Shown here: in pieces, positions 8,895 to 29,871 of the stretch
Layout: every line of letters starts with the position of its first letter
How positions within the stretch are numbered: position 1 is the first letter of the stretch
Assembly: GCA_023384495.1 (NCBI GenBank)
Contig: JAHDWG010000012.1
Coordinates: 2,924-36,914 of the forward strand
DNA from: Caldilineaceae bacterium
GTDB taxonomy: Bacteria; Chloroflexota; Anaerolineae; Caldilineales; Caldilineaceae
Reading direction: 5' to 3'
Length of the DNA: 33,991 nt
The notes under the pieces: model-generated
What the model saw: only the letters and a program-made list of their open reading frames with translations
Databases searched by the model: none
What the model was told of the DNA's origin: nothing
Program-made: the position numbers and the translations under genes

Positions 8895-8938
8895 AAATTT
8901 CTCCGCGGTATTGGGGTTGTTCTGAATGCGCAATGTTG

Positions 8939-9032: not shown

Positions 9033-11786
9033 TCATTCCTCACCGTTGTTGGTGAGGGTGAGTTGTTGAATGGAAAACGGTTCGACGACGACGAACGCGC
9101 GCGGTGACGCGGCCACGCGCTCTCCTTCCCCCACGGCTTCGCGCAGCCCCTCCATCCAGAAGCGGTGTTCGCCGGCAGTCAGCCGCCACCAGCTTTGGAT
9201 GCGCGTGGCATTGGATGCTTCGGCGAGGACAACGCCATCTTTCACCAAGCGAAGGATGGCCCACGGGCTGCCGTCGCGCACATAGCCTGTCACCTCGATC
9301 CGTTGGTGTTCTTCGGGCAGGCTCGGGTGGATCTGGTAGGCGGTGTTGGGCAACGGCGCGCTGAGCACAAGCGGTGAACCGTTGCCGGCTCCAGCGGGCC
9401 GCGCTACGATTGCTGCCCTGTCCGCCTGCGCCGCCGCGGGGCCGGGTGGGCACTCAGTCAGCACGGCGCAGTCCGCAATTGGGAGCCCCTGCGCGGTCAT
9501 CCACTCGTGGTATTCGGGGGGCAGCAACCAGAAGACGCGCGTGGCCCGTCGATCCTCCGGCGTGGCGGCGGTGGCGATGCGGCCGGTGGCGCGGTCGATG
9601 GGCAGCGTGCGGAACTGATCGTCGGGCGTGGTCGGCTCTGTGCCGCGCACAAAGCGCTCGCGGCGGGTGCGCGGGCACGCCGGTGTGGGCAGCATGCCGC
9701 TTGGCGCACAGATGAGCACCTCGACAATGTCTGGCGGGCGAGCAAAGGGTGGTGGCGGCGTACGGTGTGCGGCCATCATCAGGTCATGCCAGATAGGGCC
9801 GGCGCCGTCGACGCCACTGACATCAAGCATGGGCGTGTTGTCGGCGTTCCCCACCCAGACGCCCACAAGCCGCTCGGTGCTGTAGCCAATGGTCCAGTTA
9901 TCGCGCCAGTCGGTGGTGGTGCCTGTCTTCACCGCGGCCGGGAAGGGCAATTCCAACACCGAACCTTCGCCAAAGGCCGCCAGGCGCGCCACGGGGTCAG
10001 AGAGAATGTCGGTGATCAGATAGGCGGTGGCTGGCTCGATGACGGCAGGGCGCGTTTGTGTGCGCGGCTGCGGCGTGACGCGCACATGATACGCCCCGGT
10101 GGCCCGATCCTGGATCGAGCGAATGGCGAGCGGGTCGAGCCGGGCGCCGTCGAGAAAGATGCCAAAGGCGGTCGTCAATTCCACCAGCTTGACCTCGCCG
10201 CCGCCCAGCGTCAGCGCCAGCCCAAATTCGTTGGTGAAGGTGCTGATTCCAGCCTGCGCAGCCAGCGATTGCAGGGTAGCTACGCCCACGCGGTCGAGCA
10301 CCTTTACCGCGGGGATGTTGTAGCTATTGGCGAGCGCCTCGCGCGCGCTTACCGGCCCGTGGTAGGCCCGGTCATAGTTGATGGGCGTGTAGGGGGTCAG
10401 GCCACGGGTTGGCTCGGCGTCCGCGGCAGGGCCGGCTGTGGGCAAGGCCAGAGCTCCCGCGCTCGTTGCCAGGCGCGAGGCTGGGAAATCGCGCACATAG
10501 AAAGTGGTGGGCAGATCGGCGATGATGCTCGCCGGTGTCAAAGGGGAGATGCCACTTTGACGGCTCCACACGGGGTCGAGCGCGGCGGCATAGGTGAGGG
10601 GCTTGATCGCGCTGCCGGGTTGGCGCAGGGCGAAGGCCGCGTTGACGTTGCCCTGAATGCGGGCGTTGAAATAGTCTGGGCTACCCACCAGGGCCAGCAA
10701 TTCACCGGTCTGATTGTCCAAGATCACGGCGGCTGCGTTGTCGACGCGACGATTGGGGTTGACGTCGCGGCCACAGAAGGGGCGACCGGCCGGCCCCAAT
10801 CGGCAATTGAGCAGATCGAGGCGGTGGCGGATCGCTTGTTCGGCCTGGCGCTGCAAGTCGAGGTCAAGGGTGGTGACCACGCGCAGCCCGCCATCGCGCA
10901 GGCGGTCGGGGCCTAACTGTTGCGCCAGCAACTCTTGGACATAGATTACAAAGTGGGGAGCCTGGATATTGAAGAGCCGCGACCGGTATCGAAGCGGCTC
11001 GGCGGCAATCGATGCGCGCTCGGCGGCGGTGATGTAGCCGGCCTGCTGCATCAGGCGCAGCACCGTCTGCTGGCGCATCTGAGCGGCCACGGGGTCTTGC
11101 AGCGGGTTGTAGCCAACGGGGTATTGGATCAACCCCGCCAGCAGGGCGCATTCGGCGCGGCTGAGATCGGTGGCCGGTTTGGCAAAAAAGACTTGGGCGG
11201 CGGCTTCGATGCCAAAGGCGAAGTTGCCATAGTAGGTCTGGTTCAGATAGAGGGCGAGCAGTTCGTCCTTCGTATAGCGAAATTCGAGCCGCCACGCGAG
11301 GTAGGCCTCGCGCAGCTTGCGGCGGAGGCTCTGTTCGTAGCGCTCATAGGGGGGCAGGAGCAGGGTGCGCGCCAGTTGTTGGGTGAGCGTGCTGGCCCCA
11401 CTGACGATTTCGCCGCCGGCCCGGTAGTTTTGCCACGTAGCGCGCGCGATGGCGAGGGGGTCGACGCCGATGTGGTGAAAAAAGCGGCTGTCTTCGGTGG
11501 CGATGGTGGCCTGTACACATGCCGGCGGCAACGAGCTTAAATCGAGATTGATCTGTTTGCCGGCGTCGGGGTCGAGCACTTCATAGAGCAGGCGACCATT
11601 GCGGTCGAGGATCTGGGTGGTGGGGCGCACTAGGCGCGTCTCCACTGTGCGGATCGGCGGCAGATCCGCCAGCAGCCAAACATAGAGGGCAAGCCCAAGC
11701 GCAACCGCCGCGGCCATCACAAGCCCGCTTCGTTTTGCCAGCCTGGAACGTATGATGGTCGCCAGAGAAAAGTGTGTGCGTTTCAT
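9033..11786 (-). CDS. pbpC: Penicillin-binding protein 1C (bifunctional glycosyltransferase/transpeptidase)
   Basis: A 917-residue class A PBP-type enzyme that polymerises and crosslinks peptidoglycan outside the membrane. One N-terminal membrane anchor lies at about residues 20-42. The GT51 domain has the catalytic Glu98 in [10 protein letters not shown], then [11 protein letters not shown] and [14 protein letters not shown]. The transpeptidase domain has the acylated Ser392 in SAIK, the SYN triad and Lys620 in [10 protein letters not shown]-terminal beta domain of BiPBP_C type (about 820-905) identifies the 1C subgroup. I prefer the ATG at 11786 (GGTAGG directly upstream) over a TTG 26 codons earlier, because that extension is polar. 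The gene lies 138 bp upstream of the A2M gene and in the same direction. This association is known from E. coli (yfhM-pbpC, opposite order) and suggests a joint role in repair of the wall after protease or peptidoglycan attack. No convincing pbpC promoter was found. Confidence 0.94.
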
Positions 11787-12347
11787 CCTACCTATATCAA
11801 CGAAACGACCCTGGGCGCTGTTCCGGGAAATTCCAGACCGTCGCCGATATTGGTGACTGGACAAATCATGGGAATTGTCTCATGATCACCCGATGAGAGA
11901 ACATCTTAACAGGAGCCGTCGTTGCCTCCCCTTACGCCGGCCAGAAAATGCAAGGTTCAAACCCCCGGCTGATCGCGAAAAGTCGCCTTAACGGCTGGAC
12001 GTTCAGCGCCCAAGATCGCCTTTCACTGTCAGATGCTGAATGGATTCGTTGCTATCAAGAAGTTCACGATTGCCCTGCCCCCCTGACGAAAGTAGGATTG
12101 ACGCATTGCCTGTTCGGCGGTATACTCAAGCGACAGCAGCATCCCCATTGCCCCTCATCGCCGCTTCTTCCCAGCAACGCTGTGTGCTTTTGGTGGGTTG
12201 GGTCTGCGAGCATTCACGTTGAGCGAGCCTTCTCCCCTGGTAATTGTATTCTCAGATCGGTTGCGCAATGGAGAAGCTCAATGACATCTGCTTCCAATCG
12301 ATTGATCCATATATCTGCATATCTGTTTGATGAGGAGACCTATCACA
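11787..12347. other. Divergent intergenic region between pbpC and the exported-protein cluster
   Basis: 561 bp without a supported gene. It carries the rightward promoter at 12098-12126 and its leader of about 215 nt. Near pbpC there is a small inverted repeat, ATCATG (11865-11870) and CATGAT (11881-11886), 10 bp apart, that could be an operator. No good leftward promoter was recognised. An open frame on the plus strand starting at 11948 runs out of frame into the next gene and has no protein-like features. Confidence 0.6.
12098..12126 (+). promoter_or_regulatory. Strong sigma-70-type promoter for the exported-protein cluster
   Basis: TTGACG (12098-12103), a 17-nt spacer and TATACT (12121-12126): five of six matches in both hexamers with ideal spacing. 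Transcription would start near 12133 and leave about 215 nt of leader before the ATG at 12348. It is the best promoter in the window and the only good one seen before the six plus-strand genes. Confidence 0.65.
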
Positions 12348-13475: not shown

Positions 13476-13493
13476 GCAAATGTGGTAACGTTT

Positions 13494-15827
13494 ATGGCTC
13501 GATACGTACAGCACGTCTCAAGGATGATTACGCCTCGGTTGGCGCTCGTGATCGCTGCGCTCGCCGCCGGTCTGTTGGCCGCGCGCGGCGGCCTGGCGCA
13601 GGAGTCGCCCAACTTCGCCTTGCGCCAGGCGCTGCTCAACAGCGGCGGCGGCGAGCGCCATTCGCCAAACCACCTGGTGCGCGATGGGCTTGGCCTGGCG
13701 GCGGCAGGGCGCGCGGCAAGCCCCACCTACATGGTGGTTGGCGGCTTTGGCGGCGGCGTCATGATGGTAGACCCGGGTGGCGACGAATTTGAGCCTGACG
13801 ACGACTGCGGTCTGGCCCGCACGCTGGAGGTGGATGCGCCCGCCCAAGTCCACAATTTTCACGCCGTCGGCGACCGTGATTGGATCCGCTTCACCGCCCA
13901 GGCGGGCAAAGGCTATCATATTGAAGTGGCCAACATTGGCGCAAACGCCAACGCGGTGGTGGGCCTTTATGACCAGTGTGACCGCCCGCCAGAGTCACAG
14001 GAGAGCAACGCATTTGGCCCCAGCGTGCGCATCACCTGGTTGGCCAGGCGGAGCGGCGACTATTTTATCGAATTACAGCAGTTTGACGCTGCCTTTGCCG
14101 GCGAGGGGACCGCGTACTCGGTGCGGGTGATGCTCGACAGAGAGCCGCCTTCGCCGCCACAAAACCCGCGCTGCACGGCGGTCAACGCCACGACATTGGG
14201 CCTACAGTGGAAGCGCAGCCCTGAACGCGACGTGCGCGGCTATCGGGTGAACTTCACGGGCATTCCTTCAGGGAGCGAAGATATTTTGGGCCCCGATACG
14301 GTCTATACTGAACTGGGTGGGCTAAACGCCGGCCAGACCTATCAATTTCGGGTGCTTGCGGTCGATCATACGGGCAACGAGAGCGAGCCGTCGGGCCAGG
14401 TCAGTTGCAAGGCTGAGGCGCCGCTGGACCTGTCTCGTCCGGTGGTGATCCTCAACCAGCCGGCCTTTGGCGGCGGCGTCTACACCACCACCGCCTACTC
14501 GATGACCTTTGCTGGGGTCGCCCTTGATGATGGGCAAAACCTGTTGCGAGCGCAGGTGCGCAATGCGACGCGCAATAAAGAGGGGTGGGACTATAGCCTG
14601 CGTGGGCGCGAAGGCGCGTTTCGCGTCCCCGATATCGGGCTTGCGATCGGCGACAACCAGATCCAGGTGCGAGTCTATGATGATGCCGGCAACGTGACAA
14701 CCGAGGAGCTTGCTGTGCGGCGTCTGGGGGAGGTGCAGGGTGGGGTGATCATCATGGCGGGTCACAACGAGACGTTCGGGCTGCAACGGAACATCTACAA
14801 TGCGGCGAACCGGGCGTATCGGATCTTCCGGGGTGCGGGGTTCACGGACGAGGCGATCCACTATCTATCGCCGGTGGCGCAGGATGCGACGGGGGATGGG
14901 GTATTCGACACGGATGGGCCATCGCGGCCGGCGGATCTGGAGGCGGCGGTGACGGAGTGGGCGCGGGGGCATGTGGGGCCGGGGAAGCCGCTCTACATCT
15001 ACCTGATCGACCACGGGTTTGCGGACAAGTTCTGTGCGGCGGGGTGCAGCGGGGGAGGTGCGTTCACGCCGGCGGAGCTGGACGGGTGGCTGCGGGTGCT
15101 GGAGGCGGCGACGGGAGTAGACCAGGTGACGATTGTGATCGAGGCGTGCCAGTCGGGGAGCTTCTTGGACCGTCACAACCAGGATGTGGCGAACAGCCTG
15201 TCGAAGGAAGGGCGGGTGGTGATCACATCGACGGGGCGAGCGAACAATGCGTATGCGTCGGCGGAGGGGGCGTACTTTTCGGATGCGTTCTTTTCGTGTC
15301 TGGCGGAGAGCAACAGCATGAAGGTGTGCTACGAGCAGGGGGTGTCGGCGGTGGGGGCGACGGGTGTAGACCAGACGCCGTGGCTGGACGACAACGGGGA
15401 TGGGGTGTCGAACGAGAACGACGGGGCGGAGGCGGACCTGCGGGTGGTGACGCGCTTCTTCCGTTCGGTGCGGCCGACGATCCGAGAGGTGAGCGTGGTG
15501 CGCAACGGGGCGAACGGGGTGTTGACGGCGATGGTGGAGGAGGGGGCCGAGGAGGTGGAACTGGTGTGGGCGACGGTCTACCCGCCGAGCTTCCGCGAGC
15601 CGGACACGGTGACGATCAACCTGAATGCGCCGACGGTGCGGCTGGAGCCGACGGGCGAGCCGGGGCGTTACGCCTTCAACTATCTCAACGGCTTCAGCGA
15701 GGAGGGCGACTATCGCATCGTCTTCTACGCCCAAGACCGGCTTGGCATCCACGGCGTCCCCCGCCGCGAAGGCGATTGGGGCCTTCCCAGTGACGGCGCC
15801 CTCTTTTTGCCGCTGATTCAGCGATGA
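13494..15827 (+). CDS. Secreted C13 (legumain-like) cysteine peptidase with PPC, Fn3 and Ig-like domains
   Basis: A 777-residue exported protein. After the signal peptide (cleavage near GGLAQE) and a short ESPNFALRQAL..GGG motif come a PPC-type domain (about 100-215; EPDDDC, DRDWIRF), an Fn3 domain (about 218-310), an Ig-like domain (about 315-410), the peptidase domain (about 413-655) and a beta domain. The clan CD dyad is visible: His507 in LIDHGF and Cys552 in EACQSGS, 45 residues apart, as in legumain-type enzymes. Paired cysteines (KFCAAGC) suit an oxidising exterior, and a calcium-type loop (DDNGDGVSNENDG) follows. The protein ends in FLPLIQR. The start is uncertain: GTG 13482, ATG 13494 and ATG 13524 are all possible. 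It lies 18 nt after the previous gene and 50 nt before the next, so co-transcription is likely. The catalytic part is an exact copy of that in the next gene. Confidence 0.9.
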   Translation: MARYVQHVSRMITPRLALVIAALAAGLLAARGGLAQESPNFALRQALLNSGGGERHSPNHLVRDGLGLAAAGRAASPTYMVVGGFGGGVMMVDPGGDEFEPDDDCGLARTLEVDAPAQVHNFHAVGDRDWIRFTAQAGKGYHIEVANIGANANAVVGLYDQCDRPPESQESNAFGPSVRITWLARRSGDYFIELQQFDAAFAGEGTAYSVRVMLDREPPSPPQNPRCTAVNATTLGLQWKRSPERDVRGYRVNFTGIPSGSEDILGPDTVYTELGGLNAGQTYQFRVLAVDHTGNESEPSGQVSCKAEAPLDLSRPVVILNQPAFGGGVYTTTAYSMTFAGVALDDGQNLLRAQVRNATRNKEGWDYSLRGREGAFRVPDIGLAIGDNQIQVRVYDDAGNVTTEELAVRRLGEVQGGVIIMAGHNETFGLQRNIYNAANRAYRIFRGAGFTDEAIHYLSPVAQDATGDGVFDTDGPSRPADLEAAVTEWARGHVGPGKPLYIYLIDHGFADKFCAAGCSGGGAFTPAELDGWLRVLEAATGVDQVTIVIEACQSGSFLDRHNQDVANSLSKEGRVVITSTGRANNAYASAEGAYFSDAFFSCLAESNSMKVCYEQGVSAVGATGVDQTPWLDDNGDGVSNENDGAEADLRVVTRFFRSVRPTIREVSVVRNGANGVLTAMVEEGAEEVELVWATVYPPSFREPDTVTINLNAPTVRLEPTGEPGRYAFNYLNGFSEEGDYRIVFYAQDRLGIHGVPRREGDWGLPSDGALFLPLIQR
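14715..15769 (+). repeat. 1055-bp perfect direct repeat, copy 1 (C13 cassette)
   Basis: This stretch matches 19886-20940 base for base at a constant offset of 5171 bp. It starts at the Val-Arg-Arg-Leu codons before the peptidase domain and stops at the Arg-Arg-Glu codons shortly before the tail. It covers the whole C13 domain, the calcium-type loop and the C-terminal beta domain. No terminal inverted repeats or transposase are present, so it is not an insertion sequence. Confidence 0.97.
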
Positions 15828-15877
15828 GTGTTGCCCTCTCTGCAATGGGCCGACGAGTTGACAGAGTATAAGGGATT

Positions 15878-18800
15878 ATGAGCCGAATTCAAATCACATT
15901 GCTCTTTCTCTTCATCGTGGCGGGGGCGTGGGGCGCGGAGCCAGCCAAGAGCCAGGGTGACCCGTGCGCCGGTGTGACCGACGCGCCGGCTGCCGATTGC
16001 AATGCGCTGGTGGCCCTCTACAATGCCACCAATGGCCCCAACTGGACAAAGCGCACCAACTGGCTGGCCAACAACTTGGTCTGCTCGTGGCATGGGGTGA
16101 CGTGCGGCGGCGGGCGGGTGACGCAACTGCGGCTGATGGCGAACGGCCTGAGCGGGACCGTTCCCCCTGCGTTGGCCAATGCGCAGCTTTTGAACTGGAT
16201 CGAGCTGCAAAACAACCAACTGACCGGCCCAATTCCACCGGAGTTGGCGCAGCTCAGCGCGCTGACCGAGCTTGCGCTCTACCAAAACAGCATGACCGGT
16301 CCGATCCCGGCGCAACTGGGTGGCCTGAGCAACCTGAGCGCCCTGCGGCTGGGCAGCAACCAACTGACGGGGACAATCCCGCCAGAATTGGGCAACCTGA
16401 GCGAGCTAAAGGCGCTGGGCATCAACAGCAATCAGTTGACCGGCATAATCCCGCCGGAACTGGGCAGCCTCTCGAAACTTGAGCTGATCAATGCGCACGG
16501 CAATCAATTGACCGGCCCCATCCCCAGCACGTTTAACAATTTCCCAGAGATGTGGCGGCTCTATCTGGAGAACAATCAACTGAGCGGTGAACTGCCGAGC
16601 GGGCTGAGCAACCTGGCCAAACTACGCGTCTTTTCGATTCGTAACAACCGCCTGAGCGGCCCAATCCCTACGTCGTACACCAATCTGACGGCGTGGAACA
16701 ATGTGGATTTGGGTTACAACATGCTGACCGCGTCGGACAGCGCGCTGGTCAACTTTCTCAATGCCAAAGACCCTGATTGGGCGCAGACGCAGACAGTCGC
16801 GCCGACCGGTGTGCAGGCTACCCCGCAATCGGGCGCCAGCGTCAGCGTGACCTGGACGCCGATTCCCTACACCGGCGATGGGGGATACTATGAGGTGGGC
16901 TTCGCTGCCAGCGCCGATGGCCCCTTTGTCGTCCACGGAAGGACGGCCAACAAGAGCGCCAATAGCTACGTAGTCACCGGCCTTTCGGCGCAGACAACAT
17001 ATGATGTTGTTGTGCGGTCGTTTACGCCCGCCCACGGTGAACAGGTTAACGAGCTGCTCAGCGACTACAGCCGACCGGCGTCGGCGACGACCGGCGCGTT
17101 TAGCTGCGGTGACGTATCGCAACTCCCCGCCACGGAATGTGAGGCGCTGGTTGCCCTGTACAACGCCACCACTGGCCCCGCATGGACCAACCGGACGGGC
17201 TGGTTGCAGACCAGCACGCCCTGCTCGTGGCATGGCGTCACCTGTAGCGGCGGCCGCGTTACCGAACTCAATCTATCGAGCAACAACCTGAAAGGCAGCC
17301 TGCCGCCGCAGATTGGCAACTTCCCCATGCTCAACAACCTGGCTGTGCGCGCCAATCAGCTTTCGGGCTCGATCCCGGCGGAGATCGGTCAACTGACAGC
17401 GCTGACGCGTCTGACGCTCTCCGAGAACCAGTTGACCGGCGATATCCCCACCACGGTCGGCAACCTGGTCAACATGGAACAGTTCTGGCTGCATTACAAT
17501 CAACTGACCGGCCCCTTGCCGACCCAACTAGGCAACCTGACCAGGCTCAAGCGGTTTGGCGCCATCGACAACCGGTTGAGTGGAACCATTCCCACACAGT
17601 TGGGCAATCTCACCAACCTGACTGAACTTTATCTGAATCGGAACTTGTTCAGCGGCTCGATCCCACCTCAGATCGGCAACCTGACCAAGCTGACCGTGTT
17701 GCTCTTTGTCAACAACCAACTGAGTGGTGAGATACCCACGTCGTTCACCAACCTGACCCAGGTGACCAATCTGAACGTTGGTTACAACCGGCTCACTGCA
17801 TCGGACCCGGCATTGCTCAACTTTTTGGCCGCCAAACACCCGACCTGGCTTGACACCCAGACGCTGCCCCCCACCAATCTACAGGCAACCGCTCAATCCA
17901 GCTTCCAGATCCGCCTCTCTTGGACGCCGATCCTTTATACGGCTGATGGCGGTTACTATCAGGTCAGTATGGCGACTGCGCCTGGTGGGCCATACGCCGT
18001 TCAGGGGGTGACCGCTGACAAAACGGTCGATGGTTTTACGGTCAGTGGCCTGTCGCCGGCCACCACCTACTATTTTGTCGTGCGCACGTTTACGCCAGCA
18101 GCCAATGTGCAAAAGAACAATCTGTGGAGCAACTACAGCGTCGAAGCCTCAGCCACCACGCAACAAGAGACAACGCCCGTTGCCCCCACCATCAATTCGG
18201 CGCCACTGACAACCGCGCTGCGCGGTCAGCCCTATGCCTATAGCGTAGTCGCCTCGGGCAGCGCACCGTTGGCCTTTGCGCTGGTCAAGGGGCCGGACGG
18301 CATGAGTGTAGACCCAACCACGGGGTTGCTGTCGTGGACGCCATCCGATGTCGGTTCGTTTGCCGTGACGGTGCGCGTATCGAACGCGGTTGGCTCTGCG
18401 GAACAGGCGTTCAGCGTGGTGGTCAACGACGCGCCTCAGATTACATCGACGCCGGTGGTGGCCGGCCTGGTGGCGCAGCCCTATGCGTATGATGTAGACG
18501 CAACCGGCGCGCCTGCGCCTGCCTTTTCGCTGAGCCTTGCGCCCACCGGCATGACCATCAACGCAACCAGCGGGCTGATCAACTGGACGCCCGCCACCGA
18601 AGGTGTCTACACAGTCACGGTCAAAGCCGCCAACCCGGTAGGGGTAGACGAGCAAACCTTCGAGATCAATGTGAGTGAAGTCACAGAGATGGTGGCGCCC
18701 GTGATCCTGTCAGAGCCGCCGCTTGCCGCCGATGTGGGCAAACGCTACGAGTATCTCGTCAGCGCATCCGGCGTCCCGGCGCCAGTCTTCAGCCTGGTCG

Positions 18801-20986
18801 ACGCGCCCGCCGGCATGACCATCAACAGCACCACAGGCGCCGTCGCCTGGGAGCCAACGGACGCCGGGAGTTTTGCGGTCACCATCCAGGTGTCCAATAG
18901 CGCCGGTGACGCGCAACAGAGTTTCACCGTGGTGGTGAGTGGGGTTGCCGAGGGCGATCTGTATGAAGATGACGACGCGTGCGAGAGGGCTACGACGATC
19001 CTCACCAATGGCGCCAAGCAGCAGCGCAATTTTCACGCACTGGGCGATGTCGACTGGATTCGCTTTGAGGCGCAGGCGTTCCGCACCTATATTATCGAGG
19101 TGATTAACCAGGGGTCGCTGGCCGACGCCGTCGTCGAGATCCACGATGAGTGCGACGAAACGCCATCGAGCCTGGCCAACAATGCCTTTGGCCGCAGCGT
19201 GCGCCTGGAGTGGGATGCACGGCGCAGCGGTGAATACTTCCTGCGCCTCAGCCAGTTTGATGGCGCCTCGTTTGGCGCCGAAGAGACCCGCTACGAGGTG
19301 CGCGTCACCGTGGATACGACACCGCCCCAGGCGCCGCAAAGCCCACGCTGCGCCCCCCTCAACGACCGCACCCTGGCCGTGCAGTGGAAGAAAAGCCCTG
19401 AGCGCGATGTGCGCGGCTATCGTGTGGCACTGACCGGCGTGCCGTCGGTCAATGAGGATGTGCCCGGCATCGCCACAACCTATGTGGAGATCACTCAACT
19501 GCGACCGAACCAGCGCTACGATGTGACCGTGAGTGCGGTGGACTTTTCGGGCAACGAGAGCCTGCCGTCGGGTGTGGTGCGCTGCCTGGTGGCCCCCCCA
19601 CCCGACACCACGCCGCCCGCGCTCACCCTCTCTAAGCCGACGGGCGGCGGCATCTACACCACCACTGCCTATTCGCTCACCTTTACCGGCGTCGCGCAGG
19701 ATGATGTCAATCTCGCCCGCGTCCAAGTGCGTAACGCCACACGCAACAAAGAAGGGTGGGATTGGAGCCTGAGCGGCCTCAGCGCCCCGTTCCGCGTGTC
19801 GGACATTGGGCTTGCCGTAGGGGACAACCGCGTCGAGGTAATGGTCTTCGATGATGCGGGCAACATGACCAAAGAGCAAATGGTCGTGCGGCGTCTGGGG
19901 GAGGTGCAGGGTGGGGTGATCATCATGGCGGGTCACAACGAGACGTTCGGGCTGCAACGGAACATCTACAATGCGGCGAACCGGGCGTATCGGATCTTCC
20001 GGGGTGCGGGGTTCACGGACGAGGCGATCCACTATCTATCGCCGGTGGCGCAGGATGCGACGGGGGATGGGGTATTCGACACGGATGGGCCATCGCGGCC
20101 GGCGGATCTGGAGGCGGCGGTGACGGAGTGGGCGCGGGGGCATGTGGGGCCGGGGAAGCCGCTCTACATCTACCTGATCGACCACGGGTTTGCGGACAAG
20201 TTCTGTGCGGCGGGGTGCAGCGGGGGAGGTGCGTTCACGCCGGCGGAGCTGGACGGGTGGCTGCGGGTGCTGGAGGCGGCGACGGGAGTAGACCAGGTGA
20301 CGATTGTGATCGAGGCGTGCCAGTCGGGGAGCTTCTTGGACCGTCACAACCAGGATGTGGCGAACAGCCTGTCGAAGGAAGGGCGGGTGGTGATCACATC
20401 GACGGGGCGAGCGAACAATGCGTATGCGTCGGCGGAGGGGGCGTACTTTTCGGATGCGTTCTTTTCGTGTCTGGCGGAGAGCAACAGCATGAAGGTGTGC
20501 TACGAGCAGGGGGTGTCGGCGGTGGGGGCGACGGGTGTAGACCAGACGCCGTGGCTGGACGACAACGGGGATGGGGTGTCGAACGAGAACGACGGGGCGG
20601 AGGCGGACCTGCGGGTGGTGACGCGCTTCTTCCGTTCGGTGCGGCCGACGATCCGAGAGGTGAGCGTGGTGCGCAACGGGGCGAACGGGGTGTTGACGGC
20701 GATGGTGGAGGAGGGGGCCGAGGAGGTGGAACTGGTGTGGGCGACGGTCTACCCGCCGAGCTTCCGCGAGCCGGACACGGTGACGATCAACCTGAATGCG
20801 CCGACGGTGCGGCTGGAGCCGACGGGCGAGCCGGGGCGTTACGCCTTCAACTATCTCAACGGCTTCAGCGAGGAGGGCGACTATCGCATCGTCTTCTACG
20901 CCCAAGACCGGCTTGGCATCCACGGCGTCCCCCGCCGCGAGGGGGAACTGGATTCTCTGTATTTGCCGCTTATCAGCAAGAATTGA
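15878..20986 (+). CDS. Secreted LRR / Fn3 / Ig-like C13 (legumain-like) cysteine peptidase
   Basis: A 1702-residue exported mosaic. The signal peptide ends near AEPAKSQG. Two modules follow, each with a plant-type LRR cap (CSWHGVTC), repeats of the N.L.G.IP..LGNL kind (nine in the first, eight in the second) and an Fn3 domain: residues about 27-405 and 407-763. Three Ig-like (He_PIG type) domains span 764-1024. Then come PPC (1024-1146), Fn3 (1146-1241), Ig-like (1241-1337), the C13 peptidase with His1436 (LIDHGF) and Cys1481 (EACQSGS), a calcium-type loop, a beta domain, and the tail YLPLISKN. The ATG at 15878 has AGGG 4 nt upstream. LRR and Fn3 parts usually bind protein or glycan ligands, so a ligand-directed or ligand-controlled extracellular protease is inferred. 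From about residue 1337 onward the codon use changes abruptly, together with the start of the exact repeat shared with the previous gene. Confidence 0.93.
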   Translation: MSRIQITLLFLFIVAGAWGAEPAKSQGDPCAGVTDAPAADCNALVALYNATNGPNWTKRTNWLANNLVCSWHGVTCGGGRVTQLRLMANGLSGTVPPALANAQLLNWIELQNNQLTGPIPPELAQLSALTELALYQNSMTGPIPAQLGGLSNLSALRLGSNQLTGTIPPELGNLSELKALGINSNQLTGIIPPELGSLSKLELINAHGNQLTGPIPSTFNNFPEMWRLYLENNQLSGELPSGLSNLAKLRVFSIRNNRLSGPIPTSYTNLTAWNNVDLGYNMLTASDSALVNFLNAKDPDWAQTQTVAPTGVQATPQSGASVSVTWTPIPYTGDGGYYEVGFAASADGPFVVHGRTANKSANSYVVTGLSAQTTYDVVVRSFTPAHGEQVNELLSDYSRPASATTGAFSCGDVSQLPATECEALVALYNATTGPAWTNRTGWLQTSTPCSWHGVTCSGGRVTELNLSSNNLKGSLPPQIGNFPMLNNLAVRANQLSGSIPAEIGQLTALTRLTLSENQLTGDIPTTVGNLVNMEQFWLHYNQLTGPLPTQLGNLTRLKRFGAIDNRLSGTIPTQLGNLTNLTELYLNRNLFSGSIPPQIGNLTKLTVLLFVNNQLSGEIPTSFTNLTQVTNLNVGYNRLTASDPALLNFLAAKHPTWLDTQTLPPTNLQATAQSSFQIRLSWTPILYTADGGYYQVSMATAPGGPYAVQGVTADKTVDGFTVSGLSPATTYYFVVRTFTPAANVQKNNLWSNYSVEASATTQQETTPVAPTINSAPLTTALRGQPYAYSVVASGSAPLAFALVKGPDGMSVDPTTGLLSWTPSDVGSFAVTVRVSNAVGSAEQAFSVVVNDAPQITSTPVVAGLVAQPYAYDVDATGAPAPAFSLSLAPTGMTINATSGLINWTPATEGVYTVTVKAANPVGVDEQTFEINVSEVTEMVAPVILSEPPLAADVGKRYEYLVSASGVPAPVFSLVDAPAGMTINSTTGAVAWEPTDAGSFAVTIQVSNSAGDAQQSFTVVVSGVAEGDLYEDDDACERATTILTNGAKQQRNFHALGDVDWIRFEAQAFRTYIIEVINQGSLADAVVEIHDECDETPSSLANNAFGRSVRLEWDARRSGEYFLRLSQFDGASFGAEETRYEVRVTVDTTPPQAPQSPRCAPLNDRTLAVQWKKSPERDVRGYRVALTGVPSVNEDVPGIATTYVEITQLRPNQRYDVTVSAVDFSGNESLPSGVVRCLVAPPPDTTPPALTLSKPTGGGIYTTTAYSLTFTGVAQDDVNLARVQVRNATRNKEGWDWSLSGLSAPFRVSDIGLAVGDNRVEVMVFDDAGNMTKEQMVVRRLGEVQGGVIIMAGHNETFGLQRNIYNAANRAYRIFRGAGFTDEAIHYLSPVAQDATGDGVFDTDGPSRPADLEAAVTEWARGHVGPGKPLYIYLIDHGFADKFCAAGCSGGGAFTPAELDGWLRVLEAATGVDQVTIVIEACQSGSFLDRHNQDVANSLSKEGRVVITSTGRANNAYASAEGAYFSDAFFSCLAESNSMKVCYEQGVSAVGATGVDQTPWLDDNGDGVSNENDGAEADLRVVTRFFRSVRPTIREVSVVRNGANGVLTAMVEEGAEEVELVWATVYPPSFREPDTVTINLNAPTVRLEPTGEPGRYAFNYLNGFSEEGDYRIVFYAQDRLGIHGVPRREGELDSLYLPLISKN
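15956..18165 (+). repeat. Intragenic tandem duplication of the LRR-Fn3 module
   Basis: The two LRR caps are 1140 bp apart (CTGCTCGTGGCATGG at 16081 and 17221). The ends of the two Fn3 domains are only about 1065 bp apart, because the first module has one extra repeat of about 24 residues. Protein similarity is high but the DNA has diverged, so this duplication is much older than the perfect C13 repeat. Confidence 0.85.
19886..20940 (+). repeat. 1055-bp perfect direct repeat, copy 2 (C13 cassette)
   Basis: Identical to 14715-15769. On the left the match ends where GTC (here) faces GCT (copy 1). On the right it ends where GAGGGGGAA faces GAAGGCGAT. The flanking Ig-like domains of the two genes are clearly diverged, so identity begins and stops sharply, as expected for gene conversion or a recent cassette replacement. 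Confidence 0.97.
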
Positions 20987-21036: not shown

Positions 21037-21125
21037 AACACAGAGCACACCGAGGAGACACCGAGCACGCAGAGGATTTTGTCCATTGAACAAGCCATCG
21101 AGTTTTTCTGGGTGTTCTCTGTGTT
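21037..21125. repeat. CACAGAG-type intergenic element
   Basis: The 233-bp gap 20987-21219 has no gene. It contains AACACAGAG at 21037-21045 with several degenerate echoes (CACCGAG, CACGCAGAG), and the exact reverse complement CTCTGTGTT at 21117-21125. Short arrays of CACAGAG/CTCTGTG words are common intergenic elements in many bacterial genomes. Their function is not known to me. This copy could fold into a stem with a loop of 71 nt. Confidence 0.5.
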
Positions 21126-21173
21126 GCGCTGTTCTGGGGCTTATTCATAGTGGAACAGCGTGAAACTGAATTT

Positions 21174-21219: not shown

Positions 21220-24200
21220 ATGGTTGATGTAAAACCCAATGTCATAAAAAAACCGCGTCCTTTTGGCTATGCAATCCTGTTGGTGTTGGTTGGATTGATC
21301 TTACTCTCTGCCGCACTGGCAACCTTGTGGATGCAGAGTGTCATCCCACAGCGGGCGTTTGCCAGTCTGCGCTCGCCCGGCGCGGCGAGCGACTTTGCCG
21401 GTCGTGTCCAAGTGCAGGACATTGGAACCGCCTCGCCGTCTCTGAAGAGCGATCGTCTGCTAGTGGAGATGGCGGACGTAGGCGCGCCGCCCAGCGGACG
21501 CAGCTTCTACGGCTATATACTTGGTTCAAACGGCCAGGGCCGGCCGTTTGGCCCCCTGGCTGTGGCAGGCGGCGCCGTCAATGCAAACGCCGATTTCCCC
21601 GGTCGCAATCTGGTTGGCGCTTATAGCCAGGTTTATATCATGCAAGAGTCACGCGTCTTTAGTGCAACGCTGCCCACCGCCGCGTTGAGCCATCTCCGCA
21701 CCGCGGTGGATCGCGCCAGCGACACGCCGGGGCAGGTGGGCTACAGCGTCGGTCTGGTGAAACAGGCCGCCATTTTGCACCAGCACGCCGGTTTTGCAAA
21801 AGCCGCCGCCGATGCCGGCAATTTGAATGGGGCCAGGCTCCATACGGAACATGTACTCAACATCCTCTACGGCGAGAGTGATTCCCGATATGGCGACCAC
21901 GACGAGGATGGGTTTGCGGAAAATCCTGGCGATGGGTACGGGCTGCTCCATTATAGCAGCAGCCTGTCGCAGACCTTGCAGTTGGCCGCCGCCGCTGCGG
22001 ATGCTACGCCCAATGTGCAGACGCGCGTGGCGCAGGTGCAGACAACATTGGGCAATATTGGCTCAAGCAGCGAGGCTGGGCTATGGTCACCGGTGCTGAT
22101 CGCCGCCGCCGCAGAACTGCTGCTGGCCGGTTCGGCGACGGCCGCGCAGGCGCCGGCCACCCAGATGGTGGCGGCGACGAATCGCATCTACAATGGCACC
22201 GATTTCAACGACAACGGCGAGATTGAGCCGGTGGAAAACGAAGGCGGCGCCATCGTTGCCCACCGTTATACGCAACGAGCCGCGGACTATCTGCCCCCCA
22301 GCAGCAGCGGGGTCAGCGGCAGCGTCCAACATCGCGATGCCGACAACAACCGCAAGAGCGACCGACTCACCGTGGCGCTGACCGGCTTGCCCACCCCCGC
22401 CGCAGGTGAGCAGTACTATGTCTATCTGGTCAACGCCGACAACGACTGGCTCTGGCTGGGTGGGCTGGCCGGCTCGGGAGGAACGCTTGAGGGAACCATC
22501 AACCGCACGGGCGTCAATCTGATCGCCGGCTATCAACGCCTGTATGTGAGTGTCGGCGCGCTCTACGCCGATGGCGATCTGCCGCCTGACGCCTTGAACC
22601 ACCTGCGCATGGCGCTGCACCGGGTGGTCGATACGCCAGACGAGACCGGCTTTGCTGTGGGGCTGATGAGGCAGGCGCAACTTGTTTACGCCCATGCCGG
22701 CTTTGCCAAAGCCGCGGCAGATGGCAACAATCTGCCCGATGCCAAGCTCCACGTTGAGCATGTGCTCAACATCCTCTACGGTGAGAGTGATCCCCGTTTT
22801 GGCGACCACGACGAGGACGGCTTCCCCGAAAACCCAGGCGATGGCTATGGGCTGTTGCGCTACAGCCAGAGCCTCTCGCAGACGTTGCAACAGGCGGCGG
22901 ACAGTGCGGACGCCACCGACAACATCCGCACACGCGTGGCCGAAGTGCAGACCACGCTGGGCAATATCGGCGATCCGTCCACCAATAGCGCGTGGGTCGA
23001 CACGCTGATCGCGCGCGCCGAAGATATCCTCAACGCCACTACCGCCGCCGGCGCGCAAACACCCGCCAATCAACTGGTGACGGCCGCCGACCGCCTGCTC
23101 AACGGCACCGACCTCAACGACAATGGCGTCATCGACCCGCTGCCCAATGAGGGCGGGGCCAGGACGGCCTATCGACACACACAATATGCGGTCGACTACA
23201 CACTTGAATTGCGGGCCCCGTCATCGCCGCTGACGCCCACGCCGCTGACGGGGACGCCATCGGTTACCCCGACATCTACACCCACCGGCGGACCGTCGCC
23301 CGATGGCGATGCCTATGAAGCGGATGATAGCTGTGAGCAGGCCAAACCGATTGCCGTGGACGGCAGCGAGATGCAGATGCGCACCTTCCACGCCGAGGGC
23401 GATGTAGACTGGGTCAAGTTCACGGCCCAACTCAACAAAACCTATGTCGTCGAAGTGAGGAATGTGGGACCAAAGGCCGACGCTGTCCTCTATCTGCACG
23501 ATGTGTGCGCCGCGCCCCCCAGCGCGTTCGAGGGCAAGGCGTTTGGTTCGACGGTGCGCCTGATCTGGAACTCGACCAAAGCGGGTGATTACTTCCTCCA
23601 GTTGCAACAGTTTGACCCTAGTTTCTTTGGCCCTGACACGCACTATCACCTTACCGTGACTGAGGATGTGACCCCACCGACGACACCGATCAACCTGCGC
23701 TGTGTTGCGATCGACGCCACCACGCTGGGGGTGCAATGGCAAAAAAGCCCCGAAACCGATGTCGTACGCTATCGGGTGACTTTCCGTAACCAGACAGCCA
23801 CCAGCAGCGGCAATCGCGATGTGGCGGGCGCCGACCAGACCTATGTCGAAATCGACAACCTGGCGGCAGGCGAACTTTTCGACTTGCAAGTGGTGGCGAT
23901 TGACTTCTCGGGCAATGAAAGTGGCGCATCGGCGCCGGTTCAGTGTCGAGCAGCCGCCGTCGCCGATCCGACCCAGCCTGTGCTGACGCTCCAGCAACCG
24001 ACCGCATCGGGCGTCTTTACGACAACGGCCGCCCAGGTTACCTTTACGGGCTTCGCACAGGACGCCGGCGGCAACCTTAGCCAGGTGCATGTCAAAAATC
24101 TCACCAACCAGTCCGAGGGCCGTGACTTTAGCCTGAGCGGGGGCAACACGTCGTTCCGGGTTGAGAATCTGAGCCTCAACATCGGCGATAACGACATCCT

Positions 24201-25356
24201 GATGACCGTGATCGACAGCGCCGGGAACACGGGTCAGAAGTCGCAACGCATCCATCGGCTCAGCGGCAGAACGGGCGCGGTCATCATCGTCGCTGGGCAC
24301 AACGAGACCTTTGGCCTGCAGACCAATATCTACAATGCGGCCAACCGCGCCTATCGCATCTTCAAAACCGCCGGCTTCAGCGATGACAACATCTTTTACA
24401 TTTCACCCACAGGGCAGGACGCCGACGGCAATGGCAGCAACGATGTCGACGCGCCGGCAAGCCCAGACGCGGTGCAGCAGGCGATCACGGGTTGGGCGAA
24501 AGAGAATGGGCGCGTCGGCCCCGGCAAGCCGCTCTTCCTCTATATGATCGACCACGGCTTTGCCGATAAGTTCTGTGTCAATGGATGCAGCGCGAGTCAG
24601 GTGGTGACGCCCGAAGAGCTCAACGGTTGGCTCAAAAATCTCGAAGACGCCACCGGTCTCAACGAAGTGAATATCGTCATCGAGGCGTGCCAGTCGGGCA
24701 GCTTCATCGACCGGCCCAATGGCGCTGTGTTGAATGGCCTGGGTGGCGCCGGCCGCGTGGTTATCACCTCCACCGACCGCGCCAACAATGCCTATGCATC
24801 GGCGCAGGGCGCCTTCTTCTCCGACGCCTTCTTTTCGTGCGTGGCGGACAGCAACAACCTCAAGGTCTGTTTTGAGCAGGCCAGCGCAGCGGTGGCGGCC
24901 ACCGGCGTCAAGCAATTGCCCTGGATGGATGACAACGGCGATGGCGTCTTTAATAGCGGCGATGGCGCCGTGGCGCAAAACCGCCATGTCACCGCCTTCT
25001 TCAGCTCGATCCGGCCTGAGATCCGCAACGTGGAGGTGATCAGAGACGGCGCCAATGGACAACTGGTCGCAACGTTGGATGAGGGCGCAGAGGCCATCGG
25101 CCTGGTCTGGGCAACCATCTTTCCCCCTTCGTTTGAAGAACCCGACGGCGTGACGCTCAATCTCAACGCCCCCACGGTTCGGCTCGACCCCGACCCGAAC
25201 ACCCCCGGACGCTATCTGTTCAACTATGTCAACGGCTTTACCGAGGACGGCGACTACCGGATCGTCTTTTACGCCCAAGACCGGCTGGGCATCCACGCCG
25301 TGCCGCGGCGCGAGGGGCAATTGGATACCCTCTTCTTGCCCATCCTGTTCCGGTAG
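21220..25356 (+). CDS. Membrane-anchored C13 (legumain-like) cysteine peptidase with duplicated N-terminal domain
   Basis: A 1378-residue protein. One hydrophobic segment at about residues 15-38 follows a Lys/Arg-rich start and is probably an uncleaved anchor or signal. Residues about 61-366 and 367-665 are two copies of an unnamed domain. Each starts with a beta part resembling anti-sigma RskA-type folds (SDRLLVEM, SDRLTVAL), then has helices with AGFAKAAAD, EHVLNILYGESD and an EF-hand-like loop DHDEDGF.ENPGDGYGLL. A Pro/Thr linker (668-697) leads to PPC (697-817), Fn3 (817-913), Ig-like (913-1015), and the C13 domain with His1112 (MIDHGF) and Cys1157 (EACQSGS). A calcium-type loop, beta domain and tail FLPILFR follow. 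The protein closely resembles the two preceding peptidases over the shared part but uses ordinary host codons throughout. The ATG has AGGA 7 nt upstream. The 233-bp gap before it may hold its own control signals. Confidence 0.92.
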   Translation: MVDVKPNVIKKPRPFGYAILLVLVGLILLSAALATLWMQSVIPQRAFASLRSPGAASDFAGRVQVQDIGTASPSLKSDRLLVEMADVGAPPSGRSFYGYILGSNGQGRPFGPLAVAGGAVNANADFPGRNLVGAYSQVYIMQESRVFSATLPTAALSHLRTAVDRASDTPGQVGYSVGLVKQAAILHQHAGFAKAAADAGNLNGARLHTEHVLNILYGESDSRYGDHDEDGFAENPGDGYGLLHYSSSLSQTLQLAAAAADATPNVQTRVAQVQTTLGNIGSSSEAGLWSPVLIAAAAELLLAGSATAAQAPATQMVAATNRIYNGTDFNDNGEIEPVENEGGAIVAHRYTQRAADYLPPSSSGVSGSVQHRDADNNRKSDRLTVALTGLPTPAAGEQYYVYLVNADNDWLWLGGLAGSGGTLEGTINRTGVNLIAGYQRLYVSVGALYADGDLPPDALNHLRMALHRVVDTPDETGFAVGLMRQAQLVYAHAGFAKAAADGNNLPDAKLHVEHVLNILYGESDPRFGDHDEDGFPENPGDGYGLLRYSQSLSQTLQQAADSADATDNIRTRVAEVQTTLGNIGDPSTNSAWVDTLIARAEDILNATTAAGAQTPANQLVTAADRLLNGTDLNDNGVIDPLPNEGGARTAYRHTQYAVDYTLELRAPSSPLTPTPLTGTPSVTPTSTPTGGPSPDGDAYEADDSCEQAKPIAVDGSEMQMRTFHAEGDVDWVKFTAQLNKTYVVEVRNVGPKADAVLYLHDVCAAPPSAFEGKAFGSTVRLIWNSTKAGDYFLQLQQFDPSFFGPDTHYHLTVTEDVTPPTTPINLRCVAIDATTLGVQWQKSPETDVVRYRVTFRNQTATSSGNRDVAGADQTYVEIDNLAAGELFDLQVVAIDFSGNESGASAPVQCRAAAVADPTQPVLTLQQPTASGVFTTTAAQVTFTGFAQDAGGNLSQVHVKNLTNQSEGRDFSLSGGNTSFRVENLSLNIGDNDILMTVIDSAGNTGQKSQRIHRLSGRTGAVIIVAGHNETFGLQTNIYNAANRAYRIFKTAGFSDDNIFYISPTGQDADGNGSNDVDAPASPDAVQQAITGWAKENGRVGPGKPLFLYMIDHGFADKFCVNGCSASQVVTPEELNGWLKNLEDATGLNEVNIVIEACQSGSFIDRPNGAVLNGLGGAGRVVITSTDRANNAYASAQGAFFSDAFFSCVADSNNLKVCFEQASAAVAATGVKQLPWMDDNGDGVFNSGDGAVAQNRHVTAFFSSIRPEIRNVEVIRDGANGQLVATLDEGAEAIGLVWATIFPPSFEEPDGVTLNLNAPTVRLDPDPNTPGRYLFNYVNGFTEDGDYRIVFYAQDRLGIHAVPRREGQLDTLFLPILFR
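21400..23215 (+). repeat. Tandem duplication of an uncharacterised domain of about 300 residues
   Basis: Copy 1 runs about 21400-22317 and copy 2 about 22318-23215. The EHVLNILYGESD segments are 909 bp apart. Both copies keep the Asp-rich loop, the NPGDGYGLL motif, the TRVAQVQTTLGNIG/TRVAEVQTTLGNIG segment and the closing NGTD.NDNG.I.P..NEGGA motif. The second copy diverges mainly in the beta part. Confidence 0.85.
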
Positions 25357-25502: not shown

Positions 25503-28500
25503 ATGAATGCTTCAGATACAAACCTACGTCGACGCCGCTTGCTGGTCACGAGCGCGCCCCTAGTGATGGCTGTGGCGCTCCTCTGCGCCATGACCTTCCC
25601 CATGCCGCAGCCCGGCCGCGCCGCCGCGGCTGCCGGGCCGGACCTGACGGTGGAGGTCAGTCTGTTGCCCACCACGCCCGTGGCCGGCCAGGAGGTGACG
25701 ATCCGCGTGGTCGCCCGCAACATCGGGACGAGCAACGCCGCGGAGCGGGTTGAGGTGCATCTCTATGTGGACCCGCCCGACCGCCCGCCCACGCCGACGA
25801 CGCTTGGCTTTCCGATTATCAGCATCCCAGGATTGGCGGCCGGCGACACTGCGCAAGGGGAACGAACGCACACCTTCACCACCAATGATTGCAACCACGT
25901 CATCTACGCCTGGATCGACCGCGACGGCGGTATCGCCGAAAGCGATGAGACCAACAACCTGGTTGCGCTGCCGGTTTGCGTGGGCGTGGTCTGCGAGCCG
26001 GATGGCTACGAAGAGGACAATTCCTGTAGCGCCGCCGGCCTGCTCTCCGAGAATGCCAGCCAGGCGCGCAGCTTCTGCCGCGCCGACGACCACACGCTCG
26101 CCGATGAGGATTGGGTCAAGTTCACCGCATTTGCCGGTGTTACCTATACCCTGGCCGCCACCAATCAGGGCGCCAACGCCGCCCCCCAATTCGAACTGTA
26201 TGGCGCATGTGGCGCAGCGCCGCTAACCGATGGCGATGATCAGGTGGCCTGGCGCGCAACCGGCGACGGTGTGCTCTATGCCCGGCTGCGGCGCGCCGAC
26301 GGCGTCAGCGGGCCGCTCACCGCCTACAGCCTGACGCTGAGCAGCGCCACCGGCGTCACCGATGACTACGAGCCGGACAACCGTTGCGCCGACGCGCGTG
26401 ACATCCCCACCAATGGGGTGCGCCAGACGCGCCTCTTCCAGGCGCCGGGCGATGAGGATTGGGTCAAGTTTACCGTCAGCGCCGGCGAAAGCTTTATCAT
26501 CATCGCCGACAACACTGCGCCGGGCGTCAACCCGTTGGTGACCGTCTTTTCTTCGTGTAGCCAAGTGGATGCGAACGCCAGCTTGGGGCCATCCGCCGCC
26601 CAGGTGGCCCAAAGCAGCACGACCGACGCCGTCTACTTTGCCAGAATTCGCAACCAGAATCCGGCCAACTTTGGCGCAGCCGCCCGCTACGACCTCGCCG
26701 TCACCGCGGCGGCCTGTGCGCCTGACGGCGAGGAGGGGGACAACGACCGCACTCAGGCGCGCATGGTCACGGTGGGCGCAGCCGCCCGTACACACAATTT
26801 CTGCCCGGCCAGCGATGAGGATTGGGTCAAGTTCAGCGCCAAAAAGGGCAAGGTCTATGTGCTCCAGACCACCAATCTGGCCTTTGCTTCCGATACGGTG
26901 CTTCACCTCTATGATACCGATGGAACGACCGAATTGGCGCAAAACGATGATTACGGCTACACGAGCGGTTCGCGGATTGTTTGGGAGGCGCCCGCCGATG
27001 GACTCTACTTTGCCAAAGTGCGCCACGCCAATCCCGTCGCCAGTGGGCCGAACACCCAGTATGACCTCGCCGTGCAGGAGGGCGTCTGCGCGCCGGATTC
27101 GTTTGAGGGCGGCGCCGGCAACAATGGCCCTGGGGATGCGCCGCTGGTCGCCACCAATGGCGTCAGCCAGACACACACATTCTGCGCCGATGCGCTCAAC
27201 CCCCTGCTCGGTGACCAGGATTGGGTCGCCTTCAACGCGGTGGCGGGCGGGAACTACCAGATTGTCACCACTGGTCTTGGCGCCAACAGCGACACGGTGC
27301 TCGAACTCTACGACCGGGACGGGGCAAGGCAATTGCTGCATAACGACGATGTGGGCGCCGGGCGCGGCGCCATGTTGACCTTTACCCCCACCCTCTCTGG
27401 CGCGTATTTTGTACGGGTCACCCAGTTCAACCCCAACCTGGTAAGCCGCGACGCCGACTATCAGTTGCAAATTTTTGGTACAGAGCCGCCCACGCCAACG
27501 CCCACCCCGACGTTGACGCCGACGCCCAGCCCGACCCCCTCGCCCACCGCAACCCCGCAGCCCTCGACGGTCAAGACGCTGATCGTGGTCAACCGCGAGC
27601 GGATCGAAACCTTGCATGGCGCCGGCCCCGCCGATACGCTCTTTCGCAAGTTGAGCCAGTTCGCCAATGACAGCGACGTCGAGGGCGTTGTGGTGGAGGT
27701 GGAGCGCGACCCCGCGGTGGCCGCGGCCTATGCCGCATGGACAGCCGATGCGACGACGCTCGCCGACCACGAACTCGCCAACAACACGGTCGCCGCCATC
27801 CGCAACCGGGTGATGGGCTTTCTCGCCAGCGCCCCCCAGGCCCGACATGTGGTGATCATCGGCGATGACCGCGTCGTCCCCTTTCGCCGCGTGCTGGATC
27901 GGGTGGCGCCCACGGGCAAGCAGGCCGCCTCGGTGGAGTCTGTTTATGCGCAAGAGCTGACCGAGGAGGGAACCGTCTACGCGGCGCTGGCCGCCAACAT
28001 GATCCTGACCGATGATTACCTCGTTGACCGCGAGCCGAGCCAGTGGCAAGACCGCCAGCAAAACGAGTATGAACTGTTTGTGCCAGACTATGCTGTGGGC
28101 CGGCTCGTCGAGGAGCCCGATGAGATCATCGCGGTGCTCGACAATTTTCTGGCCGGCGACAAGATGATCGGCGCGGCCAATGCGCTGGTGACGGGGTATG
28201 ACTTTGTACAGGACAGCGCCGACCTGATCAAGACGCTCTTCCGCAACGACGCCATCCCCACCGACGCCGAACTGATCGGCGCAAGCTGGACGGGTGACGC
28301 CCTGCGCGCCAAATACCTGACCGCCGCGCCTCGCTATGATCTCTACTCAGTCAATGGTCACTCCACTCACCTGGCCGCGGGCGCGCCCGACGGCAGCGAC
28401 ATGACCGCCGCCCAGATTTTGGCCGCCACCACCGACCTGCGCGGGGTGTTGGTCTTTAGCCTGGGCTGCCATAGCGGCCTCAATGAGCCGGGCGTGCTCG

Positions 28501-29705: not shown

Positions 29706-29858
29706 CTGGGCGTCTGGCCCGGCGGCAGTCCGTTGCAGAGCTATGTCGAACTGGCGCAAACCGCGCTGCTGCTGCAACACTTGACCGCGGGGATGGATTC
29801 TTACGTCATCGCCCTGAACATACCTATTCCAAACCGGGAACAATTTGTCAGCTTCTGA
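29706..29858 (+). other. Possible gene remnant or leader ORF before the next gene
   Basis: The 187-bp gap 29685-29871 contains an open frame that reads like real protein (LGVWPGGSPLQSYVELAQ, later VIALNIPIPNREQF). It ends in TGA at 29856-29858, directly at the ribosome-binding site of the following gene. An in-frame ATG at 29793 would give a 21-residue peptide but has no clear Shine-Dalgarno. I do not recognise the family. It may be the end of a lost gene. Confidence 0.25.
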
Positions 29859-29871
29859 AAGGAGCAAGCTT

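Follow-up and report, generated by a model that had tools for sequence, protein, structure and literature searches.

Two neighbouring predicted C13 protease genes of a Caldilineaceae bacterium share a near-identical 3′ cassette behind divergent front domains

The window analysed here, a stretch of 33,991 nt from a Caldilineaceae bacterium (GCA_023384495.1, contig JAHDWG010000012.1, positions 2,924–36,914, forward strand; coordinates below are window positions), carries two neighbouring plus-strand genes for multidomain proteins of a secreted type that end in the same C13 protease-like module, referred to below as the cassette. Gene 1 (13482–15827, 781 aa) encodes a signal-like N-terminus, PPC-like, Fn3, and Ig-like domains, the cassette, and the tail LFLPLIQR. 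The PPC domain has no Pfam match in the gene 1 protein, and was assigned by eye from “DEFEPDDDC...”. After a gap of 50 bp, gene 2 (15878–20986, 1702 aa) encodes leucine-rich repeats (LRR) and Fn3 repeats, He_PIG Ig repeats, a PPC-like domain (by eye), Fn3 and Ig-like domains, the cassette, and the tail LYLPLISKN. Gene 3 (21220–25356, plus strand, 1378 aa) is a third member of the family, and its cassette (24250–25311), which is 66% identical to the other two at the DNA level, has not been homogenised with those of genes 1 and 2.

Both cassette copies, 14715–15769 in gene 1 and 19886–20940 in gene 2, are in frame on the plus strand. The first-pass annotation, made from the sequence alone, had described them as identical; the match is indeed exact over 1055 bp, neither end can be extended, and the window contains no N. 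In-register identity (offset 5171) is approximately 70% immediately 5′ of the cassette border, where the end of the Ig-like domain and a linker (14553–14714) can be compared with 19724–19885, and is at chance level past the gene end. The C-terminal tails (15770–15827 and 20941–20986) are gene-specific and lie outside the identical tract. In the 588 kb sampled from this genome (71 loci and the window; 7.7% of 7.63 Mb), the cassette is the sole exact repeat of at least 120 bp, and thus is not a chance repeat.

The 5′ border falls in the last Ig-like strand or the linker, just ahead of the first strand of the protease fold. In a structural model of the Ig-like domain plus cassette (predicted local distance difference test score, pLDDT, 84), it corresponds to residue 121, within the last Ig-like strand (114–123), and the first protease strand spans residues 130–135. 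The 3′ border corresponds in the same model to residue 472, past the last strand (454–461) and directly before a disordered tail. It thus lies at the end of the folded part, with ca. 18 aa left up to the stop codon in one gene and 14 aa in the other, i.e., near the end of homology itself. The earlier proposal that identity starts and stops at domain borders therefore holds for the 5′ side, while the 3′ border is approximately the gene end. Separate scans of the four border regions revealed no pair of repeats enclosing the tract, and neither terminal inverted repeats nor target duplications were seen; a mobile gene cassette or insertion sequence was rejected on this ground.

The earlier assignment of the cassette to family C13 proved right. 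Pfam recognises Fn3 and peptidase C13 domains in genes 1–3, along with LRR and He_PIG repeats in gene 2. PF01650 scores in the three genes (24.4, 24.3, and 31.8 bits) are above the curated cut-off of 22.8. The best Foldseek match of the modelled cassette is prolegumain (4fgu, E 9e-10), with a predicted caspase-like fold nearest legumain. The DHG and EACxSGSF columns are both invariant, in 13/13 rows of one alignment and in 18/18 rows of another. By analogy with legumain, the putative catalytic His codon (in DHG) is at 15012–15014 in copy 1 and 20183–20185 in copy 2, and the putative catalytic Cys codon (in EACxSGSF) is at 15147–15149 and 20318–20320, all on the plus strand. According to the model, the cassette is a complete C13 domain followed by a C-terminal β-sandwich. 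It resembles legumain (asparaginyl endopeptidase, C13) in its above-threshold PF01650 score, its top fold match, and both motifs. It differs in that the proteins are bacterial, of a secreted type, multidomain, and equipped with the β-sandwich, protease activity being predicted from sequence; moreover, the cassette is only ca. 16–18% identical to the mammalian legumain chains that top the fold matches. Of 61 relative genomes searched, 12 contained relatives of the cassette, as did 10 of 46 family genomes (E 1e-60); wider searches found them in 18 of 396 genomes of a class sample (E 1e-60) and 4 of 400 genomes of a phylum sample (E 1e-50), the window’s genome being counted throughout. In an open-access literature search, no paper on this cassette family was found, and the accessible passages of the one paper in which legumain, bacterial, Chloroflexi, and C13 co-occurred concerned cystatins rather than a bacterial C13 enzyme.

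Outside the cassette, genes 1 and 2 differ clearly, as had been noted before. Their fronts are 50–62% identical at the protein level. Over the PPC-Fn3-Ig part, identity is 56% and the two are sisters in the tree (support 100/98), which indicates that the gene pair is old. At fourfold degenerate sites, 44 of 94 front positions differ between the genes, while none of 201 cassette positions do. This indicates a recent overwriting of the cassette. Sharp tract ends and the lack of synonymous differences inside the tract are what concerted evolution leads one to expect. We consider it probable (roughly 0.78) that genes 1 and 2 are old paralogues for a secreted-type multidomain C13 protease and that gene conversion overwrote the 3′ cassette of one of them very recently, as part of a domain-limited concerted evolution that recurs in the family. 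A recent fusion, in which gene 2 arose when an LRR gene acquired a new copy of the cassette of gene 1, would represent duplication of a module rather than its replacement. Such an event would explain why identity is confined to the cassette, and the LRR front, which was not looked for in relatives, may be special to gene 2. However, the sister relationship of the PPC-Fn3-Ig parts at 56% identity implies that gene 2 already had the family architecture, and its tail is its own; we regard the fusion as distinctly improbable.

The exactness of the match has to be judged against the quality of the assembly, which is of a metagenome type (764 contigs, completeness 95.5, contamination 8.2). No 16S was detected in it, and runs of 10, 20, and 100 N are present in several contigs, including one of 10 in the window’s contig, which suggests a scaffolded short-read assembly. 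A de Bruijn assembly offers only one path where a repeat occurs on both sides of a single stretch (A-R-B-R-D), so that a short-read assembler can pass through it. The presence of two cassette copies is therefore plausible, and small differences between them may have been merged. If the copies differed in the cell by a few percent and were collapsed into one repeat edge walked twice, the homogenised pair would remain and only its base-perfect identity would be false. Besides the N runs and the missing 16S, the start of contig C176 in a dispersed repeat is in line with this possibility, which we hold to be unlikely, though the least unlikely of the alternatives. The copies are tandem neighbours with gene-specific fronts and tails, as in relatives, and the tract ends are clean, with no mixed zone. 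Furthermore, merging requires copies that are already nearly alike, so the main finding survives: the cassettes are nearly identical, and probably base-perfect. The dispersed element at the C176 start (positions 1–77, CACAGAG/CTCTGTG-type) matches 51 other places in the genome, and by eye a similar stretch can be seen at 21037–21134, between genes 2 and 3.

The searches yielded no second genome of the window’s own genus (g1). Concerted evolution was tested in another genus of its family (genus g6), in which neighbouring genes of type A (~840–1130 aa) and type B (~1170–1400 aa) are found in a conserved A-B arrangement. Within one genome (G018C9 and G030C2), the fronts of the A/B pairs are 44–52% identical at the protein level and the cassettes 86%. 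For seven orthologue pairs between genomes, front identity is 70–93% and cassette identity 78–87%. The front tree splits types A and B (100/100), and the cassette DNA tree pairs the same-genome copies (G018C9a+b, 100/99; G030C2a+b, 92/96). In approximately unbiased (AU) tests on DNA, a single clade of type A cassettes was rejected with p = 2e-6 and one of type B with p = 6e-9; same-genome clades of the fronts were rejected with p = 2e-91 and 4e-7, and also in the protein tests (3e-5 and 0.002). Thus, on DNA trees and AU tests, paralogues within a genome are closer to each other than to orthologues inside the tract, and the opposite is true outside of it. In a run-length permutation test, the two lowest cassette p values among 28 pairs (0.0005 and 0.0025) belong to the two same-genome pairs. 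Together with the fourfold-site counts in the window pair, the closer kinship of neighbouring g6 cassettes and its reversal in the fronts support well the earlier suggestion of very recent gene conversion or cassette replacement. In contrast, the accompanying phrase that the front domains “diversify” does not stand as worded: at 70–93% identity between species in the compared pairs, the orthologous fronts are stable gene types, and the cassettes, not the fronts, sort by genome.

These data also bear on whether strong constraint on protein or codons, with no copying involved, could account for the similarity of the cassettes, which form the catalytic part and have many invariant residues. Yet between species, cassettes are as divergent as fronts at fourfold sites (e.g., 58/142 vs. 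57/136), while the window pair shows 0/201, which refutes constraint at synonymous sites; nor can constraint yield a same-genome grouping of cassettes with conflicting fronts. We consider it extremely improbable, and a difference in rate alone was rejected by the same between-species divergence. In the window’s own genome, all three cassettes cluster together (98/95 in a 14-row tree; 80/82 in a 23-row tree with G014c included), while the front of gene 3, unlike its cassette, clusters with B-type fronts (84/88). This hints at an older round of homogenisation that included gene 3.

Several observations weigh against gene conversion and its recurrence in this family. The gene 3 cassette is only 67% identical at the protein level to copies 1 and 2, so this neighbour was not homogenised, and the same can be said of the neighbour pairs G020a/b (72%) and G014b/c (62%). 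Distant cassettes within the genomes G027, G010, and G150 are ca. 39–51% alike. The G014a/b pair is alike over the front too (82.6% over 2251 columns). In protein AU tests, type-wise cassette clades (four rows) were not rejected (p = 0.098 and 0.11), though type B with G014c added was (0.002), and protein tree support for the G030 cassette pair is only 67/95. The lowest front p value in the permutation test (0.0005) belongs to an orthologue pair, G018C9a/G027; the test is therefore weak, and we give it little weight. Finally, the exact identity of the window cassettes may be in part a product of assembly, and the 3′ end of the identical tract does not coincide with that of the codon signature described below. 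Whole-gene duplication as a general cause was rejected, since it fits G014a/b alone.

Other genomes provide further cases of both kinds. In G032, two contigs start inside the cassette at residue 209; they differ at 3 of 429 bp up to the cassette end and at 9 of 43 after it, and homology is then lost. This is the window-like pattern, cut by the assembly. In G245, which belongs to another family (f15), 777 bp present on two contigs differ at 20 sites (97% identical). The second copy, which is without the catalytic His region, starts within the protease domain and stands behind an unrelated N-terminus. The chimeric gene (L079:4240–5262, minus strand) consists of a signal-like N-terminus and a linker fused to the last two thirds of the C13 cassette. 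Three cassettes of G200 are 74–81% alike. A large array is present in G027 (C410; L070–L072), where large genes over ~45 kb contain eight divergent stretches of C13 cassette that are not homogenised. The adenine-specific differences typical of a diversity-generating retroelement were not found: the window copies are identical, and only 6 of the 20 G245 differences fall on an A in copy a; no search for a reverse transcriptase was made.

Most of the identical tract also has a peculiar codon usage, on which the first-pass annotation did not comment, with free wobble positions occupied almost exclusively by G. This G-only part spans 14715–15668 in copy 1 and, with the same letters, 19886–20839 in copy 2, both on the plus strand. 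Between 14715 and 15665, the 185 fourfold sites carry 160 G, 10 A, 8 T, and 7 C, whereas the front has C 102, G 89, T 27, and A 21; for G and C, the Fisher test gives p = 5e-27. The last 101 bp of the repeat (15669–15769, plus strand) have C-rich wobble positions, and from 15669 to the end of gene 1 the counts are C 19, G 3, T 2, and A 1. The start of the G-only part matches the 5′ identity border within one or two codons, and its end lies ca. 100 bp before the 3′ identity border. Among 61 cassette stretches (fragments of one gene on broken contigs being counted separately), the window pair and the two from G245 stand out with G/(G+C) values of 0.87–0.90; the next highest value is 0.62. In G245 (C143 and C170; L078 and L079), the onset of the signature is likewise at the border between the Ig and protease parts, five codons ahead of the defined cassette start, and a C-richer patch is located at ca. 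codons 1037–1060; the second copy begins only at residue 108. Thus, among the measured genomes the signature is found in just two, from different families, and both have a near-identical second cassette copy. No other strong case was revealed by scans of 671 kb, 588 kb of the window’s genome, and 258 kb of G245, in which weaker G windows (G 0.70–0.84) were few and lay mostly within frames that are short or probably spurious.

One source of such a signature could be foreign: the cassette or its G-only part may have entered one gene from a genome with G-ending codons and then been copied to the other. The codon signature flips twice, first at the 5′ border and then at ~15668 within a highly conserved motif, and the Fisher test separates tract and front, both of which would agree with an import. 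Such an import would need to have had the same 5′ border as the copying, however, and the protein tree holds the window cassette with that of gene 3 (98/95) and the G245 cassette with its own relatives. The G-only cassettes of the two genomes are just 55% alike and are therefore unlikely to stem from a shared foreign donor. There was no plasmid match and no relative on a viral contig (46 stretches matched a pattern, 0 were confirmed), and a plasmid or virus source was rejected on these grounds. Overall, we judge foreign import improbable.

Gene conversion, the favoured cause of the identity, does not by itself create the G signature: the G032 pair, 99.3% alike over 429 bp, lacks it, and no dose effect, i.e., more G in homogenised cassettes, was found when 8 g6 genes were compared with 12 others (Mann–Whitney p = 0.57). 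Nor would a G-only tract result from ordinary GC-biased conversion, which treats G and C alike. Within the tract, base frequencies hardly change at the first and second codon positions, and codons of the NNY type stay C-rich (63 C, 19 T); C-to-G mutation pressure was rejected accordingly, as amino acid changes would have to be purged strictly. An antisense gene (frame 14865–15845) was also rejected, as it would read mostly C-initial codons; the frame is probably open because there are few A at wobble positions. In the tract, runs of GGG or longer occur at 40.9/kb, compared to 1.0/kb for C runs (18.7 and 11.4 in the gene 1 front), and GGTGG occurs at 8.4/kb on the coding strand and is absent from the other. 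The E. coli Chi octamer is absent from the tract, though the E. coli word may not be the Chi of this group.

As readings of the signature, we can only offer a recombination-prone G-clustered strand, a strand-asymmetric conversion bias, or codon selection. In a bolder version, the cassette would be a self-maintaining recombination unit, whose G-clustered coding strand acts as a transcription-linked hot spot of copying, and repeated strand-asymmetric conversion would have replaced C by G at free wobble positions, with the signature beginning at the 5′ border of the tract and arising separately in two families. We regard this as doubtful speculation. In immunoglobulin switch regions, the non-template strand of a transcribed, recombining stretch is G-clustered. 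By analogy, and as a comparison of principle only, the tract may be likened to them in the G-clustering of its non-template strand; it differs in being protein-coding and bacterial, and in undergoing copying instead of deletion, and an R-loop in it would be hypothetical. No paper joining R-loops, a G-rich non-template strand, recombination hotspots, and gene conversion was found in the literature search.

The exchange itself would proceed by RecA-type homologous recombination between the tandem copies, with one 3′ cassette being overwritten by the other. On the 5′ side, the tract would halt at the Ig-like/protease border, limited by the ~30% divergence of the fronts; on the 3′ side, it would extend to the end of homology near the stop codon, limited by the gene end. 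Such exchange probably recurs in the family, with the fronts remaining gene-specific and the cassettes being homogenised within a genome. The probable outcome would be secreted proteases with differing front parts, possibly for binding or placement, and one common catalytic unit; the likely effect is thus several differently targeted proteases sharing that unit. The cassette shows that one protein module can stay uniform within a genome while the parts ahead of it stay distinct. The G-only tract, as a sharp strand-asymmetric synonymous change, is a clear-cut test case for the rewriting of synonymous sites by conversion, codon selection, or some other process.

The genes around the pair were also inspected. 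Gene 4 (25503–29684) encodes PPC and CARDB domains and C-terminal caspase-like motifs (by eye, perhaps C25-like); in G032 (C342), a gene resembling it by eye is likewise located 3′ of the cassette. Gene 5 (29845–32106) encodes DUF6345. The C-termini of genes 1–4 (~15801–15827, 20957–20986, 25330–25356, and 29658–29684) carry a short motif like [FY]LPxxxR, and the end of gene 5 is similar. In 19 of 19 aligned family genes, [FY]LP is present near the stop codon, and judging from sequence it is possibly a sorting or anchoring signal of the group. The N-terminal part of gene 3 contains an internal duplication (21670–21969 vs. 22579–22878, 70% DNA identity). Two minus-strand genes, for a bacterial α-2-macroglobulin (2976–8933) and a transglycosylase/transpeptidase (9033–11864), adjoin the protease genes, placing a protease trap beside secreted-type proteases.

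In the open-access literature search, we found no report of such module homogenisation in Chloroflexota and no matching paper on homogenised catalytic domains. Long-lasting concerted evolution over the full length of genes has been described in prokaryotes for 26 genes, e.g., tuf, amo/hao, and mtrA (PMC6053082). As in our case, paralogues within a genome are closer than orthologues, and conserved synteny argues against repeated duplication; the survey differs in that its two tables contain no secreted protease and no member of Chloroflexota. Closer to the situation described here are babA/babB and homA/homB (segment 3) of H. pylori, where concerted evolution is limited to a segment and is explained by intragenomic gene conversion (PMC2795765). 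There too, paralogues in one genome have a homogenised 3′ segment and a gene-specific 5′ segment. Those genes encode outer-membrane proteins and were compared among strains of one species, whereas the cassette is the predicted catalytic module of a secreted-type protease and was compared across species and genera; a codon signature like that of the cassette is not mentioned in the accessible part of that paper. Thus, domain-limited concerted evolution by gene conversion is of a known kind, seen here in a secreted-type protease, while the G-only tract is new.
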